Virus record (IMG/VR): IMGVR_UViG_3300020119_000270
Span: 1 to 36,908 of that record
Source: a virus
Direction: 5' to 3' (one strand)
Length of the DNA: 36,908 nucleotides
The notes under the pieces are model-generated. The model had not been told where the DNA came from. It was given only the letters and a program-made list of their open reading frames with translations, and ran no database searches. Positions 7,144 to 24,934 of this stretch are shown piece by piece. The translations under genes were made by a program, and so were the position numbers. How positions within the stretch are numbered: position 1 is the stretch's first letter; the number at the start of each line of letters is the position of its first letter.

Positions 7144-8147
7144 TAGAGCACCGTCCATGAGCCAGTTCGGGCTGAATAAACTGAATAATGTCCAGACGAG
7201 CCTGCTGTCCCCGCGACTCCGGGGGAACCTATTCCAGTTGCAGTTCCTCCAGTACCACCTGCGCCACCTGCAACAGAGATTGTACCTAGAGTGACATCAA
7301 GCCCTATGATATAGATAAAGCCTCCGCCACCTCCGCCGCCTCCGCCTCCACCACCTGCGTTGCCGCTTACGGCGTTTCCACCGTTGCCGCCTACTCCGCC
7401 CTTAGCTGAGACCCCAAGAGAGCTTGTGTTTAAAAATGTATCTGCAAAGATAATGACTACACCACCACCGCCGCCTGATCCCGCGCCATCTCCGCCTGTA
7501 CCGCCACGACCACCACCGCCGCCTCCGCCGCCTTGTCCTGCGTCTTTATAAGACAGATTCATGGTGTGATCGCGTCGTACGATCTTTTCTGGGAAATAAG
7601 TATGAGCTCCGACTGTTCCGGCAAGACCGCCGGGAGATATCGTTACTGCCCCACCCGCACCACCAGCGCCACCGGCGCCACCGTACCCAGACCATGCAGC
7701 ACTAAGACCCCCTTGAACATGATCAGAAGGACCTCCGCCAACTCCGGCAAGACTTACGCCATAGTCAACACCTGGAGCCGCAGAACCGCCGGCACCTGTT
7801 ACCGTATTTCCAGTAGAGTTTCCGCCGGCACCACCTAAGTTTTGGATTACAGCTGATCCTGCAATTGAGCATGTGCCCCTTACATGAATGGCATACCCAT
7901 TGGCATTTATGATCGCGGTGCCCGTTAATGTCAGGGAATTATAAAACATCGTGTGAGTAAGTGTTGTCGTCCCGCTAGAGAGCGCGACATCGCCATCTGA
8001 TCCATCGCCTAAGAAGAGTGCAATGTTCGCAACCGTTATGAGCTCTTCGATAGCTGATTGAACATTGGTCGAGGCAAACCCATTAGTTGAATTATCAAAT
8101 GGTGTTGCTCTGGCGACAGCTGATGCGTTAAATATTTTACTTGCCAT
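7143..8147 (-). CDS. Glycine-rich fibre/adhesin-like protein
   Basis: About 334 residues from ATG 8147 (TAATG overlap with the previous gene); a GTG three codons earlier is less likely. An N-terminal NSTNGFASTNVQSAIEEL segment is typical of phage fibre proteins. Residues about 85-320 hold many glycine runs (GGAGGAGGAGG, GGGGGGGG, GGNGGN) separated by short beta segments. Such runs occur in glycine-rich phage adhesins whose runs pack as polyglycine helices. The plus strand is CCG/CCA-rich as a result, creating spurious open frames. It may be a head fibre or a receptor-binding adhesin. Confidence 0.65.
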   Translation of the reverse strand: MASKIFNASAVARATPFDNSTNGFASTNVQSAIEELITVANIALFLGDGSDGDVALSSGTTTLTHTMFYNSLTLTGTAIINANGYAIHVRGTCSIAGSAVIQNLGGAGGNSTGNTVTGAGGSAAPGVDYGVSLAGVGGGPSDHVQGGLSAAWSGYGGAGGAGGAGGAVTISPGGLAGTVGAHTYFPEKIVRRDHTMNLSYKDAGQGGGGGGGGRGGTGGDGAGSGGGGGVVIIFADTFLNTSSLGVSAKGGVGGNGGNAVSGNAGGGGGGGGGGGGFIYIIGLDVTLGTISVAGGAGGTGGTATGIGSPGVAGTAGSSGHYSVYSARTGSWTVL

Positions 8148-9346
8148 TATGGACACTCTAAAATTCTAAAGTTTCTATTAGTGCTAGCGCTCACTAGCCA
8201 GATCTGAAATGTACTATCAGCATCTATTGAAAACGTTAAAACTTGGTTGTTTGCAACTGGCGTCCCGCTTGAAACGGTCACCGTATTATCAAAGCCATAA
8301 TAAACGTTTGGATCAAGGACTGTGATCACTAGAAGTTTTCTGTTGGTAAGTCTTGCCCCGCCAACTTTTGCTTCAATAGCTACGTTTGCTGTAGTTGTAG
8401 CGATAGCACCTTGAGTTCCGCCATTTCTTAGGCCATCTACAACTTTTGCTTCTTTATTTGTAGTAACACCTTGAGTGTCGGTTCCATCACCAAGCTGAAC
8501 ATTCAGTGGTGCTGCAACGGTGCCGACTTCAGTACCTGCATTGTTTCTCAAATTAGAGTGAATAGCTCTTTGGGCTGTGATGCGAGCTACGGCTACCGCA
8601 TCTTCAGTCGCAGCCGTTGTGGATGTATCATCTAATTGCCCCATCATTGGGACACCCTTATTTAGGGTCGCATTTTGCGCGTGAGGGATATCATCGATTA
8701 TTTGAAGAGCTGTAATTTGTGTTGCTTGATTTGCGGCTGTAGCGGCTCCCGTGGGCAAACTTATGGTGCCTGAGATGTTGTTAATGTCCCAAGTTCCTGA
8801 CTGAGATGCCGGCTGCGGGGTTGTACCCGTGGGATCTGTGCGAAGTGGTGTCCCGGCAACGCCTATTTCTGACCCAGCATTGTTTCTTAAATTAGAATGA
8901 ACAGCTCTTTGAGCTGTAATCCTAGCCACTGCGACTGAGTCTTCCGTTGCCGCAATAGTTGCAGAATCATCTAATTGTCCCATCATTGGAACGCCTTTGC
9001 TTAAAGCGGCGTTCTGAGCATGAGGGATATCGTCAATAATCTGGAGAGATGTGATCTCCGTTGTTTGGTTAGCAGAGGTCGATGCCCCTGTGGGAAGGCT
9101 TACGGTTCCTGATACGTTAGTGATATTCCAAGTACCAGCCTGAGATGCCGGTTGCGCGGTAGTGCCCGTGGGATCGACTCTAGCGGGATTTGCAGCGGTT
9201 GCTATTTCAGTTCCGGCACTGTTTCTGAGATTGGTATGGAAGCCACCGGCCGTAGTGGCTTCCACATAAGTATCTTCGGTGCCAGTTGAATTAGATCCAA
9301 CGACCTTAACTGCTTGCGATGCTTTCTTTTCTTTTAGATCGGCCAT
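8147..9346 (-). CDS. Repetitive fibre-like structural protein
   Basis: 399 residues with AGGAAGG about 5 bases before the ATG. It carries two tandem copies of a 113-residue module (residues 58-170 and 171-283). Each copy contains DPTGTT.QPASQ, SGT.SLPTGA, IIDDIPHAQNA and GVPMMGQLDD, then HSNLRNNAG. A partial third copy (HTNLRNSAGTEI) lies near residue 37. The C-terminus is a beta domain (NRKLLVITVLDPNVYYGFDN). Such modules occur in phage virion surface proteins. The following gene overlaps it by one base. Confidence 0.6.
   Translation of the reverse strand: MADLKEKKASQAVKVVGSNSTGTEDTYVEATTAGGFHTNLRNSAGTEIATAANPARVDPTGTTAQPASQAGTWNITNVSGTVSLPTGASTSANQTTEITSLQIIDDIPHAQNAALSKGVPMMGQLDDSATIAATEDSVAVARITAQRAVHSNLRNNAGSEIGVAGTPLRTDPTGTTPQPASQSGTWDINNISGTISLPTGAATAANQATQITALQIIDDIPHAQNATLNKGVPMMGQLDDTSTTAATEDAVAVARITAQRAIHSNLRNNAGTEVGTVAAPLNVQLGDGTDTQGVTTNKEAKVVDGLRNGGTQGAIATTTANVAIEAKVGGARLTNRKLLVITVLDPNVYYGFDNTVTVSSGTPVANNQVLTFSIDADSTFQIWLVSASTNRNFRILECP
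8498..9175 (-). repeat. Tandem duplication inside the fibre gene (2 x 339 bp)
   Basis: The copies span 8837-9175 and 8498-8836. The protein period is exactly 113 residues, and many positions are identical between copies (for example IIDDIPHAQNA and VPMMGQLDD). The DNA differs at many third codon positions, so the duplication is not recent. Confidence 0.8.
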
Positions 9347-10972: not shown

Positions 10973-11015
10973 AATGAGAGATGCCGTATTCTAGGCATTG
11001 CCGGCATCTCTCATT
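10973..11015 (-). other. Strong 14-bp hairpin after the capsid gene
   Basis: A perfect inverted repeat with arms 10973-10986 and 11002-11015 (core GAGAGATGCCG / CGGCATCTCTC) and a 15-base loop. On the minus strand the second arm is followed by GATCAAAC, not a T-run, so this is not a classic intrinsic terminator. It probably marks mRNA processing or protects the capsid transcript from 3' decay. Confidence 0.75.
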
Positions 11016-11035: not shown

Positions 11036-11875
11036 TCACGCAGTACCGATTTCTACGATGCGTTTTCCAGAATCAAGAATCTTTCCGCCATAGAGGTGGC
11101 TGATGCTCCAACGATCTGCAAGCATAGGGACGTCTCTGAAGTATTCAACTTTAGGCATAATCTGACGGCCCGAAGCTACTGCAGACTTGTGATAGAACAA
11201 GCTTCCTGCATCTGCGACTTGAGTCGAGAGCAAGAAAGTGAAGCCAAACAGTTTTCCGAATTCGCCATTTCGAAGTCCTGCAGCACTGCCTGCTTCGTTC
11301 ACACGTGTGAATTCTTGGATGCTCAAGATCGCAGCTTCATTGGCTGGGCTGATCAAACAACAACGCTCATCTTGTGGTACGTTTTGCTCATTTAAGCGCT
11401 GACGTGCCAAAAGAATGTCTGCTTTTGTAAGTGCAGTTCCAGATGCGAAAGCCAACTGATGATCTGGAGCAGCAGCGGATGCGCCTGCAGCCATGATGCC
11501 GATGAAATAGTTGTCCATTTCAACTGCCATGTCTTTTCCAGCTTGTTCCAAATACTGACCCATGACATCGATGTTCGATTGAACGCCAGCAATGTCTTCA
11601 ACCAAGAATTGAACAACTTTATGTTGGTTCAATACGAGATCGTCAGTTGATGCAACGTTGGTTTGAGCACTAACTGCAGTAGCAGCAACCTTGGTAGCAA
11701 CAGTGAACTTGCCGATACGTGGGATCTTTAAAGTATCCATCCCAGGACCTGCAGGATAATCAGTGATCGTTCCAGGAACGACTACGTTTGCAACTAGAAC
11801 CATTTGAACTTGTGAAGAAACTAACTGCTGAATCGTTGCCGATACAGAAGACTTCTGTGTAATAACATCAGCCAT
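11036..11875 (-). CDS. Major capsid protein
   Basis: 279 residues, in the canonical place after the scaffold gene. Features fitting an HK97-fold coat protein: an amphipathic N-terminal helix (SATIQQLVSSQVQMVL), the DTLKIPRIGKF strand, and DMAVEMDNYFIGIMAA, a likely spine helix. Then come ADILLARQRLNEQNVP and RCCLISPANEAAIL (P-domain), and a C-terminal segment with FRDVPMLADRWS. The ribosome binding site AAGGAGG is near perfect and sits in the loop of a small TACCC/GGGTA hairpin (11882-11896). No clear protease is encoded nearby, so coat processing may not occur. Confidence 0.85.
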   Translation of the reverse strand: MADVITQKSSVSATIQQLVSSQVQMVLVANVVVPGTITDYPAGPGMDTLKIPRIGKFTVATKVAATAVSAQTNVASTDDLVLNQHKVVQFLVEDIAGVQSNIDVMGQYLEQAGKDMAVEMDNYFIGIMAAGASAAAPDHQLAFASGTALTKADILLARQRLNEQNVPQDERCCLISPANEAAILSIQEFTRVNEAGSAAGLRNGEFGKLFGFTFLLSTQVADAGSLFYHKSAVASGRQIMPKVEYFRDVPMLADRWSISHLYGGKILDSGKRIVEIGTA

Positions 11876-18475: not shown

Positions 18476-18505
18476 ATTTAAACACTCTAGACCAAGTTGT
18501 GTCAA
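18476..18505 (-). promoter_or_regulatory. Promoter of the packaging/head operon
   Basis: On the minus strand a perfect -35 box TTGACA (18505-18500) is followed after 17 bases by TTTAAA (18482-18477), a 4/6 match to TATAAT. Transcription would start near 18470, about 20 bases before the zinc-ribbon gene. The -35 box lies just inside or upstream of the divergent RusA gene. Confidence 0.55.
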
Positions 18506-18519
18506 ACTCTTCGATAACC

Positions 18520-18912
18520 ATGGATGGATTGCTTATCGAATTTAGAATTCAAATCGAGCCAAAGCCTAAAGGCAGGCCACGGTTTAATTTTAACTCTCGG
18601 CATGCATATACGCCTGAAGACACTCGCAGCTACGAAACGGATCTCAAGTGGCTATTGGGCCCGCACAGACCGACGGAGTTACTGGAAGGTCCTCTACAGC
18701 TCGCCTTAGAATTTGGTCTTGTACGACCCAAATCTAACCGGCTTAAGTATCCAAGCGTGAAACCCGATCTCGACAACTTCGAGAAAGCGGTTATGGATGC
18801 CATGGAAGGCATCTTCTTTAAAAATGACTCTCAGATCATCGCGAAATTTTCAACAAAAGTATGGACCCCCGCAGCTCCATATATCCAAATTCGCATTCAA
18901 TCCCTCCCTTAA
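18520..18912 (+). CDS. RusA-type Holliday junction resolvase
   Basis: 130 residues from ATG 18520; a GTG at 18499 would add 7 residues. It is the only convincing plus-strand gene. It has EPKPKGRPRF near the start, then YTPEDTRSYE, and the catalytic signature KPDLDNFEKAVMDAMEG with D83, D85, K89, plus D103 in KNDSQI. These match the spacing of Asp70, Asp72, Lys76 and Asp91 in E. coli RusA. The enzyme cuts branched DNA made in recombination, so packaging meets unbranched DNA. It is divergent from the packaging operon and convergent with the phosphoesterase gene. Confidence 0.88.
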   Translation: MDGLLIEFRIQIEPKPKGRPRFNFNSRHAYTPEDTRSYETDLKWLLGPHRPTELLEGPLQLALEFGLVRPKSNRLKYPSVKPDLDNFEKAVMDAMEGIFFKNDSQIIAKFSTKVWTPAAPYIQIRIQSLP

Positions 18913-21408: not shown

Positions 21409-21951
21409 TCAGCTTTGCTCAAGTACCGTTTTTAAATTCTCAATCAAGGCCTTTAAGATCTCGCCTATTCTTGGTTCACTTAATCCGAAGCACTGCGAAA
21501 GCTCTTTGCCGTTTAAGCCCACCTTAAAATACAAATATAGCATTGCCCTTTCTCTCTCAGATAGCTTATCCATGCGTTCGATCAGCCAATAGAAAGGGTC
21601 CGTATCAATATGAGTATGCTTATCAGGGATCAAATTAAGAGCGTGTCCATCACCATGGCCAAACGAGGCCTTCGATTTGTCTGCGTAAACAGAGTGACTG
21701 TGGGAATTCAGCAATACCTTCTTCGCAGATTTTTCAAACCTACCGAACTCGAGCCTTAAGATATCGATGAACACATGATTGCAGTTTCTATTTTGGCCCT
21801 TAGCCTTAGAGATGATGAACTCTTGGGCAAGATCATCGGTTAGATGAGGGAAGCCTAAGTTCTTTGCTACCTTCTGAGCGATAGCCTTACATTTTTCGAC
21901 CTCATCTTTTGGGATATCAATCCAAGCTGGGACGTCCTTGTCTTTTGCCAT
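21409..21951 (-). CDS. Phage-encoded sigma-70-like factor
   Basis: 180 residues. Residues about 15-75 resemble sigma region 2 (HLTDDLAQEFIISKA, VFIDILRLEFGRFEK). Residues 128-176 are a clear region 4 helix-turn-helix: DKLSERERAMLYLYFKVGLNGKELSQCFGLSEPRIGEILK. The linker has an unusual His-rich stretch (NSHSHS, GHGDGH, DKHTHID). It probably steers host RNA polymerase to phage promoters. The start has no ribosome binding site and lies inside the previous gene, so translation is probably coupled. Confidence 0.75.
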   Translation of the reverse strand: MAKDKDVPAWIDIPKDEVEKCKAIAQKVAKNLGFPHLTDDLAQEFIISKAKGQNRNCNHVFIDILRLEFGRFEKSAKKVLLNSHSHSVYADKSKASFGHGDGHALNLIPDKHTHIDTDPFYWLIERMDKLSERERAMLYLYFKVGLNGKELSQCFGLSEPRIGEILKALIENLKTVLEQS

Positions 21952-22677: not shown

Positions 22678-23202
22678 CTAGGGGGTAGTTAAAATATTAA
22701 ACCCCATCCTTTGCAGTCCAGTCGCCTCAATTGAGTTAATCTTAATTTGAGATGAGATCGTTTGAAGTCCCTGCTTCCACGACATAAGCTTCGGTTCATT
22801 GGCACTTTTGTTCACAATGGTATTAATGATCTTTTCTGTGACAAACTCCATCATCCGTTTAAACTTATTTGGCGAGAGCAGCTTTCGGCTGATTTGATAA
22901 ACATTAGACAGATTCTCTTTTGGCTTATTTGGGTTTTTGCGTGTCCATCGAACAATATGCCCAAGCTTTTCTAATATATTTAAATACTTAAACACCGTTG
23001 GTCTCGACCATTTGAGATCGATTTGCAGCGTCTTGATGCTTGGGAAGGCGCAAGGCATACGATTAATTAAATCTGTTAACAGTTGAAAGGCTCTGGCGGG
23101 AAGCCTCTCTGGACCACTCGCCAGGGCTCTCCTGCGATCAAGATATGCGTATTGCGAAGCTTGCGTTTTTTCATTTTTCTTCCGACTAAATCCAATATTC
23201 AT
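22678..23202 (-). CDS. Winged-helix replication protein (RepO-like)
   Basis: 174 residues from ATG 23202 with GGGGA upstream; a TTG ten codons earlier is less likely. Residues about 35-95 form a winged-helix domain: PARAFQLLTDLINR, CAFPSIKTLQIDLKWSRPTVFKYLNILEKLGHIVRW. This is the style of phage and plasmid initiators that bind the origin and recruit host helicase. The C-terminal half is basic with no motif. No primase, helicase or polymerase was found, so host proteins would do the synthesis. It could also act as a transcription regulator. Confidence 0.6.
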   Translation of the reverse strand: MNIGFSRKKNEKTQASQYAYLDRRRALASGPERLPARAFQLLTDLINRMPCAFPSIKTLQIDLKWSRPTVFKYLNILEKLGHIVRWTRKNPNKPKENLSNVYQISRKLLSPNKFKRMMEFVTEKIINTIVNKSANEPKLMSWKQGLQTISSQIKINSIEATGLQRMGFNILTTP

Positions 23203-23293
23203 CTGAATCCCCAAACTGTTGAATGACCCCAAGACTTGCAGATCAAAGTTATTGTTAAGAAATTACGCAGTGAATTATTTTTAAGATTTACGC

Positions 23294-23324
23294 TTGACGT
23301 GGGTTGGGAAAAAAAGGATATAGT
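23294..23324 (+). promoter_or_regulatory. Plus-strand promoter of the small RNA
   Basis: TTGACG at 23294-23299 (5/6) and TATAGT at 23319-23324 (5/6) lie on the plus strand. The spacing is 19 bases, longer than the ideal 17, which weakens the call. The start site would be near 23331. Confidence 0.45.
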
Positions 23325-23330
23325 GAGCAC

Positions 23331-23480
23331 GTCCTGTCCACGTTGAAACTTGTTGATTTGTCGTCCTTAAGTTTCATTAAAGCGAAATTCAGAAAAATAA
23401 AGCGATCCGAAATTTCAAAATTAGATAACCCTGCTCTCTTCAAAACTTCAAGTTTTAGAGAGAGCAGGGTTTCTTTTTAT
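23331..23480 (+). ncRNA. Candidate plus-strand small RNA (about 150 nt)
   Basis: The transcript would run from a promoter at 23294-23324 to a strong intrinsic terminator at 23427-23480, against the direction of nearly all genes. It contains no ATG. A first stem TGAAACTT/AAGTTTCA (8 bp, about 23343-23376) encloses a roughly 17-base loop, an A-rich linker follows, and the terminator stem ends it. It lies in the gap between the zinc-binding protein and the RepO-like gene. The function is unknown: it could be an antisense or trans-acting regulator of phage or host RNA. Confidence 0.55.
23427..23480 (+). terminator. Very strong intrinsic terminator
   Basis: The arms AACCCTGCTCTCT (23427-23439) and AGAGAGCAGGGTT (23459-23471) pair perfectly over 13 bp. 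The loop itself folds (AAAACT/AGTTTT). A T-rich run follows (TTCTTTTTATTT). On the minus strand the hairpin is not followed by T, so it acts on plus-strand transcripts only. Confidence 0.85.
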
Positions 23481-23513
23481 TTACTATTTGTAAAATCACG
23501 TGGTGTCTTTTTG

Positions 23514-24005
23514 CTACCATGTAATTTTTACATACCAATCACTGTACGGGATTCCCCAAGTAGGCCATGCCTCTGGACGCAATCTTCCCTTCTGACACGA
23601 GCATCTAAAAGTATAAGTATAAAGCTTACCATCGGTGGCCTGTACGGCGCCACTGCCATGGCAATCTGAGCAGCCTGATCCCTGGCTTATGAAGACCTGC
23701 TTCTTTTGATTTTCTTCTATTTTGAGCCCATTTGTAGGGGTTTGGGGGGGCTCTGTGATTATGGGTGGGCGCTTTAGTTTCTCTGACTCAATCTTTTTTA
23801 GGGCTCGTCTGAAGTCTGTGACGATCGGTAAAATCAACTTTGACTGTAATTCTAAATCCACAATAATACTAAATTGTACCGATGTAAGATTCTTAAATTC
23901 TTGGAAGATGAAGTCACGCCGCGACAACGTGTAATAATCCTCACCCTTTACTTTAAACTTCTCTACGATCTTATTGATTTCATTATCGAACTCACCTCTG
24001 TCCAT
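23514..24005 (-). CDS. Zinc-binding protein of the replication block (163 aa)
   Basis: The N-terminal 80 residues are helical and charged, followed by a Pro-rich linker (PPIITEPPQTP). Then comes a DnaJ-like zinc site CSDCHGSG...FRCSC (C112, C115, C135, C137). It lies between the ERF-linked genes and the RepO-like gene. A DNA-binding or helicase-loading role is possible by position only. Confidence 0.55.
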   Translation of the reverse strand: MDRGEFDNEINKIVEKFKVKGEDYYTLSRRDFIFQEFKNLTSVQFSIIVDLELQSKLILPIVTDFRRALKKIESEKLKRPPIITEPPQTPTNGLKIEENQKKQVFISQGSGCSDCHGSGAVQATDGKLYTYTFRCSCQKGRLRPEAWPTWGIPYSDWYVKITW

Positions 24006-24062: not shown

Positions 24063-24293
24063 CTATTTAGAGTTATTAACTTTCTTTGGCCTCTTGCGTA
24101 AGATTTTCTTCTTTGGTTTCTCGCAAACCAGAGAATGGACAGCAATTGAGGTATGAAAACCTTCTTGATCTAGATGTTCTTGCATCATTTCAGCGCTATC
24201 TTTGTCGTTAAACCCGTAGCTCAACGTCGCAATAACAACGAATTTTGGGTGCCCGCATTTGAGTTTTGGCCCAAGCTTTGTCTTAGATTTCAT
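24063..24293 (-). CDS. Small basic hypothetical protein (76 aa)
   Basis: ATG 24293 overlaps the ERF stop by 4 bases (ATGA); an earlier in-frame start (24311) is less likely. It has KCGHPKFVVIATLSYGF, then an amphipathic helix (DSAEMMQEHLDQEGF), and a Lys/Arg-rich tail (KPKKKILRKRPKK). It may assist the annealing protein. No family was recognised. Confidence 0.5.
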   Translation of the reverse strand: MKSKTKLGPKLKCGHPKFVVIATLSYGFNDKDSAEMMQEHLDQEGFHTSIAVHSLVCEKPKKKILRKRPKKVNNSK

Positions 24294-24934
24294 GTTTGAA
24301 ACTCTATCCACTGATTTAGTTTAACTAGATCTTGAGGTGAGAGATCAGCACTTTTTTGTTTACCCGTAAGCTCAACAATAATGCCTCGAGCCTCATCATC
24401 GTTTAACTTTAAGTGTTCAGTTAATCTTTTCCAAACACCGGTCACTGTGTGAGTTTCTATTGTCCCGGCAACTGGAGGTTTAATCCCAACGACTACCGGA
24501 GGTTTTACTACAGGCTTGCGATCATCTTCTTTTTTAGGTCGACCGATACTACCTTCTCCATCATCATCTTCGTCTGCTACCTGAGACATAAGTGCGCTGA
24601 GCCCAAACCTTTTTGCATAGGAGACTGCACTGCCCATCCCTTGCATGTTTTGTTTATCTAAGATTAGTGGGAACCCACCATCTGATAGCCATTGTCCAGA
24701 GCAGTGAATAAGGCTCGTTATGATCATGGTTACGTCGCCAACAGTCGAGATCGATTGGACAAGAGCTATACCATTTTTACTTAACGGTTCTCTAACCGAA
24801 TCAACCACAGAGGTAAGAGAGGCATATTTGCTTTTGAAGTGCGAATTTACCTTATCAAATACCGCAGGTTTCATTTCTCCTTGCGCCTTCGCTAGAGCTG
24901 TCGCCAGTAAATCAATATGTTCACTTGTCTTCAA
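24290..24934 (-). CDS. erf: ERF-family single-strand annealing protein
   Basis: 214 residues. The ERF core is clear: LLATALAKAQGEM, then NSHFKSKYASLTSVVDSVREPLSKNGIAL, and SYAKRFGLSALMSQVADEDDDGEG (105-128). ERF proteins anneal single strands in phage recombination and genome circularisation. After residue 130 there is a Pro/Lys linker, then a helical C-terminal domain (EARGIIVELTGKQKSADLSPQDLVKLNQWIE). It pairs functionally with the RusA resolvase. It overlaps both neighbours by 4 bases. Confidence 0.88.
   Translation of the reverse strand: MKTSEHIDLLATALAKAQGEMKPAVFDKVNSHFKSKYASLTSVVDSVREPLSKNGIALVQSISTVGDVTMIITSLIHCSGQWLSDGGFPLILDKQNMQGMGSAVSYAKRFGLSALMSQVADEDDDGEGSIGRPKKEDDRKPVVKPPVVVGIKPPVAGTIETHTVTGVWKRLTEHLKLNDDEARGIIVELTGKQKSADLSPQDLVKLNQWIEFQT

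Follow-up and report, generated by a model that had tools for sequence, protein, structure and literature searches.

A candidate OOP-like antisense transcription unit beside the replication initiator gene of a little-known phage

The anatomy of the sequence gives good support to a predicted plus-strand non-coding transcription unit lying among the replication genes of a phage. It is best read as an OOP-like unit that would act on the replication operon as an antisense RNA or through convergent transcription, and we think, with somewhat better than even confidence, that such a unit stands beside the replication initiator gene. In favour of this reading, the sole strong terminator of the window faces against the operon; against it count that neither a homologue nor covariation was found, and that the promoter spacer is 19 nt.

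Results

Genome setting

The window, by which we mean the whole stretch of DNA that was analysed, comprises the 36,908 bases of a virus record. All of its recognised genes are on the minus strand except one, the gene for a RusA-like resolvase; the initial annotation had noted that the unit runs opposite to nearly all genes. The unit lies in a 311-nt non-coding gap (23203-23513) flanked by an open reading frame (ORF) of 163 amino acids and the gene for a lambda-O-like replication initiator; the ERF gene is on the same strand as these two and slightly upstream of them. The sequence elements themselves, with their strands and positions, and the identities of the initiator and of ERF were observed directly (Table 1). 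The initiator also matches a DnaD-like helicase loader (1e-6) and, weakly, HTH_36, and its more likely start is the ATG at 23202, which follows GGGGA, rather than the TTG listed at 23232. Family searches with the 163-aa ORF returned zero matches. Elsewhere in the window, the minus strand at 21409-21951 encodes a protein of 180 aa that has a sigma-70 region 4 domain, and late or middle promoters may therefore deviate from the host consensus. Two 300-nt direct repeats, 71% identical, were also seen at 8505-9143, within a minus-strand gene (8147-9346).

Table 1. Elements of the putative transcription unit and neighbouring genes, in window coordinates
Feature	Position	Strand	Details
RusA-like (Holliday junction) resolvase	18499-18912	+	sole recognised gene against the general direction
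Replication initiator, lambda-O-like	22678-23202	-	phrog_391 'replication initiation O-like', E 8e-10
Inverted repeat, left arm	23259-23295	+	two iteron-like SCGWAAWT sites, reverse
Sigma-70-like promoter of small RNA (predicted)	23294-23324	+	TTGACG 23294-23299, 19 nt, TATAGT 23319-23324
Proposed non-coding RNA, ~150 nt	23331-23480	+	predicted start 23331-23332; no ATG
Internal hairpin of RNA (predicted)	23344-23376	+	UGAAACUUG...UAAGUUUCA
Inverted repeat, right arm	23380-23416	+	two SCGWAAWT sites, forward
Intrinsic terminator	23427-23480	+	13-bp perfect stem and inner stem, then TTTCTTTTTATTT
163-aa ORF	23514-24005	-	CxxC...CxC cysteine cluster resembling a zinc-binding motif; 3' end faces terminator
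ERF single-strand annealing protein	24290-24934	-	PF04404, E 6e-17; phrog_2324

A strong terminator against the operon

At the level of sequence, the terminator is firmly established. Its perfect 13-bp stem, which the initial annotation had described, is formed by AACCCTGCTCTCT and AGAGAGCAGGGTT (23427-23439/23459-23471) and followed by TTTCTTTTTATTTAC, and an inner stem prolongs the hairpin to 22-nt arms that are 91% matched. Only on the plus strand does a strong T tail follow. No other intrinsic terminator of the window comes near its score d of +24.3; apart from one weak site it alone scored clearly above zero in the window scan, and no minus-strand site reached 0 or more. It is also the best combination of hairpin and tail in the window (-30 kcal/mol). 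No perfect stem of at least 13 bp with a T tail occurred in 40 dinucleotide shuffles of the window, and the maxima of the d-scan in 12 shuffles were no higher than 18.6. Read on the minus strand, the identical hairpin scores -8.7, and this strand specificity speaks against a mere bidirectional terminator of the operon. We counted 46 strong terminators in 0.94 Mb of fetched phage sequence; 6 of them lie antisense between co-directional genes, including that of the window and that of contig G001 (see below); such an arrangement is unusual, not unique. As a separate observation, a perfect 14-bp hairpin at 10973-11015, immediately beyond the 3' end of the minus-strand gene for the major head protein (11036-11875), has a T tail on neither strand and is possibly a stabiliser or processing site of an mRNA 3' end.

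A predicted promoter upstream of the terminator

The promoter-like pair proposed by the initial annotation is present about 100 nt upstream of the terminator, preceded by an A/T-rich UP-like stretch (about 23272-23290). Its spacer is suboptimal in length, which is why a scan with a fixed spacer of 16-18 nt missed it. In a weight-matrix scan of both strands it ranked 17 among 73,744 positions and first among the plus-strand sites of the gap, whereas the minus-strand candidates there rank low (196 and 218). Only 10 plus-strand sites score as well, approximately one per 3.7 kb, so that the chance of finding one within ~150 nt upstream of a given terminator is ~0.04. The predicted promoter is thus good, not exceptional.

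The upstream part and the -35 element align at 81% over 42 nt with a promoter of an rRNA operon in one Bdellovibrionota genome, and a second match of the motif lies in front of an Hsp20-looking gene in Bdellovibrionota genomes. We do not claim that the promoter is modelled on an rRNA promoter shared across the phylum, as the motif is no more frequent in Bdellovibrionota than a reversed control; the likeness is therefore only a hint about the host.

The predicted transcript

In agreement with the initial annotation, the region 23325-23480 contains no ATG, and the four TTG codons in it have no preceding Shine-Dalgarno sequence. A plus-strand TTG frame of 121 aa (23304-23669) was discarded as a coding candidate: it has no family, crosses the terminator and is antisense to the 163-aa ORF. 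The ~150-nt RNA is predicted to fold with -42.6 kcal/mol (z -5.5), which is owed mostly to the terminator, and without the terminator z is about 0. The 8-bp stem noted earlier, UGAAACUU/AAGUUUCA, is indeed found near 23344-23376, with modest significance (z -3.0 for the 41-nt piece alone). The initial annotation had recognised no known phage RNA family, and our Rfam search gave zero matches at or above the gathering threshold in the window; the best sub-threshold matches reached 24.7 bits against a threshold of 67 and 23.6 against 40.2. Among the other minus-strand phage transcripts, the longest complementarity to the RNA was 10 nt, which is the level expected by chance.

Search for relatives

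None of the searches, which covered viral contigs, phages, plasmids, Rfam and 369 Bdellovibrionota genomes, gave a homologue of the gap. The blastn searches comprised the gap against phages and plasmids and a wider 5-kb query against phages, and the DNA search of the 369 genomes gave short, mostly A/T-rich matches. Exact-pattern matches in viral contigs were set aside, since they lacked the terminator hairpin and the surrounding RNA sequence. Searches through the initiator, the 163-aa ORF or a 206-aa ORF led to no relatives: tblastn with the initiator gave one weak partial match, and the 369 Bdellovibrionota genomes gave two marginal initiator matches. Phages related through TerL have kept neither the initiator nor the 163-aa ORF where these were searched for, and relatives found through ERF carry no clear equivalent of the small-RNA unit.

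One contig, G001, with a TerL 57% identical to that of the window, has its strongest plus-strand terminator (8627-8656, d 21.2) directed against the operon of early genes, directly behind ERF. The likeness is positional only: there is no sequence similarity, the neighbours differ and the plus-strand promoter candidates are weak. The 698-nt stretch behind ERF in this contig (L070:7962-8659), which has no ORF of at least 60 aa and ends in the strong plus-strand terminator, could hold an unrelated RNA. On its opposite strand, this contig likewise contains a frame with weak likeness to RusA (L070:13190-13750).

A further TerL, 46% identical to that of the window, is encoded by a contig of a Halobacteriovoraceae metagenome-assembled genome (MAG; PASP01000003.1), the DNA of which is identical over 19.5 kb to an IMG/VR contig (L057). 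This identity suggests that the contig is a prophage and that some members of the phage group have Bdellovibrionota hosts. Together with the likeness to an rRNA promoter, the Halobacteriovoraceae relative gives a hint about the host of the phage studied here.

Discussion

Terminators normally follow genes of their own strand. Here there is no recognised plus-strand gene within 4.5 kb before the terminator but there is a plus-strand promoter candidate close upstream of it, and a short plus-strand transcript is therefore the simplest account. The initial annotation had offered several functions for such an RNA, of which regulation of the replication genes is the best reading because one of the neighbours is an O-like initiator. 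According to this model, RNA polymerase would start at the promoter, make the non-coding RNA and stop at the terminator, while the early operon (ERF, the 163-aa ORF and the O-like initiator) would be read through the gap on the minus strand. The weakness of the minus-strand promoters in the gap fits such read-through from upstream. If the operon is read through, the RNA, which would end about 35 nt short of the stop codon of the 163-aa ORF and start about 130 nt from the initiator ATG, would be fully complementary to the operon mRNA between these two genes. Duplex formation with cleavage by RNase III, interference by convergent transcription, or both, would then lower or time the expression of the initiator and hence replication, and the strong terminator would keep antisense transcription out of the ERF operon. 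We infer the firing of the promoter, the passage of operon mRNA across the gap and the regulatory effect from this arrangement.

The closest parallel is OOP of phage lambda, an antisense RNA of 77 nt that terminates on its own and is directed against the early operon next to O (PMC3349717), and in lambda the activity of the promoter pO tunes both pR transcription and replication (PMC3985674). As a control, the terminator scanner used here recovered lambda tO on the strand opposite cII and O, with a score of 29.6. In both phages a short non-coding RNA (here predicted) lies opposite the early or replication operon, between an upstream operon gene and the gene of an O-type initiator, and has its own promoter and its own strong intrinsic terminator, lying towards the upstream gene; in the phage studied here, promoter and terminator are recognised by sequence only. 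Unlike OOP, the RNA proposed here is about 150 nt long and lies wholly within the gap, without reaching into the 3' end of the ORF upstream. That upstream position is taken by cII in lambda and by an ORF without family match here, and ~129 nt separate the predicted start from the initiator ATG, whereas 2 bp lie between O and the -10 element of lambda pO. Neither blastn against phage records nor Rfam revealed sequence homology with known oop genes. The layout is thus like that of an OOP unit and the RNA probably works like one, but, since sequence homology and coding overlap were both looked for and not found, we do not class it as an oop gene.

In plasmids, the copy-number ctRNAs of pT181 and its relatives (RF00242) are antisense RNAs that face the leader of an initiator gene and carry hairpins and an intrinsic terminator. 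The RNA proposed here resembles them in these predicted traits, and any attenuation of the leader would be hypothetical here. The Rfam score against RF00242 (18.2, gathering score 56, E 7.4) is at the level of chance.

The gap also contains a 37-nt imperfect inverted repeat (27 of 37 positions), which flanks the predicted start site of the small RNA and whose score was reached in none of 300 shuffles. One may consider that the gap is a replication origin or an operator, in which the O-like initiator, or a repressor, binds the inverted repeat with its four iteron-like SCGWAAWT sites; the plus-strand promoter would then be autoregulated or would activate the origin by transcription, and the RNA would be a by-product. 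Four of the nine SCGWAAWT sites of the window fall in the gap, which adjoins the initiator gene, and they form two oppositely oriented pairs, with about 25-nt spacing, around the start site; moreover, lambda replication is under the control of transcription close to ori and of the activity of pO (PMC3985674). However, the motif was chosen after the sites had been seen and an unbiased count of repeats is not above shuffles, a GC-skew turn was not seen at the gap, and the iterons of lambda itself lie inside gene O. We regard an origin or operator as unlikely, though worth keeping in mind.

The same repeat could be the outer helix of a structured RNA of ~220 nt (about 23255-23480), a compact three-way junction followed by the terminator, rather than part of a plain antisense unit. 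The helices would be P1 (23259-23295/23380-23416), P2 (23296-23303/23337-23344) and P3 (23345-23352/23368-23375), the promoter would have to lie further upstream, and the promoter candidate at 23294-23324 would be inside the RNA. Consistent with such a structure, P1 beats all 300 shuffles, most helix pairs have a predicted probability near 1, with zero unpaired bases between P1 and P2 and between P2 and P3, and there are 6 G-U pairs on the plus strand against 2 on the minus strand, although G-U pairs are favoured by composition too. The fold statistic is modest (MFE z -2.1; 7 of 200 shuffles as good, p about 0.035), and the minus strand folds almost equally well (z -1.75). Furthermore, the mismatches in P1 are mainly A-A and A-G and not wobble pairs, no relatives were found in which to look for covariation, and no good plus-strand promoter lies upstream of 23259, while a good one sits inside P1/P2. 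A ~220-nt structured RNA is thus distinctly unlikely in our judgement, and we consider it very unlikely that the unit represents a new phage RNA family of this size, with a zero-linker three-way junction and a terminator beside the initiator gene, which would bind the initiator or a host protein and not act as an antisense RNA.

Alternatively, the terminator could merely insulate, stopping stray or distant plus-strand transcription, for example from rusA, from entering the ERF operon antisense, with no dedicated small RNA. A plus-strand gene is indeed present upstream (18499-18912), and terminators lying antisense between co-directional genes are no great rarity (6/46). Yet 4.5 kb and many minus-strand genes separate the end of rusA from the terminator, and the top-ranked plus-strand promoter candidate of the gap is just upstream of the terminator, so that we find pure insulation highly improbable.

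The initial annotation had also raised the possibility of an RNA anti-CRISPR. Known Racrs imitate both the sequence and the structure of CRISPR repeats (PMC10651486), and the RNA proposed here resembles them in being a small phage RNA with its own, here predicted, promoter. The CRISPR-repeat-like sequence, however, is no longer than about 8 nt (GTTGAAAC) and is mostly the 5' arm of the RNA's own hairpin, and no Rfam CRISPR direct-repeat family was matched at E up to 10, so this suggestion gains no support. Its two companions, targeting of host mRNA and mimicry of a host RNA, found no support either.

The regulatory interpretation is plausible and has been made more precise, and the unit is most likely an ordinary antisense regulator in a little-known phage. 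If this is confirmed, OOP-like antisense units beside an O-like initiator would not be confined to the lambdoid phages of enterobacteria: the phage studied here has, among its TerL relatives, a prophage-like contig of a MAG from the Halobacteriovoraceae, a family of predatory bacteria. Confirmation would also suggest that phages repeatedly use opposed transcription in the replication region to time their replication.
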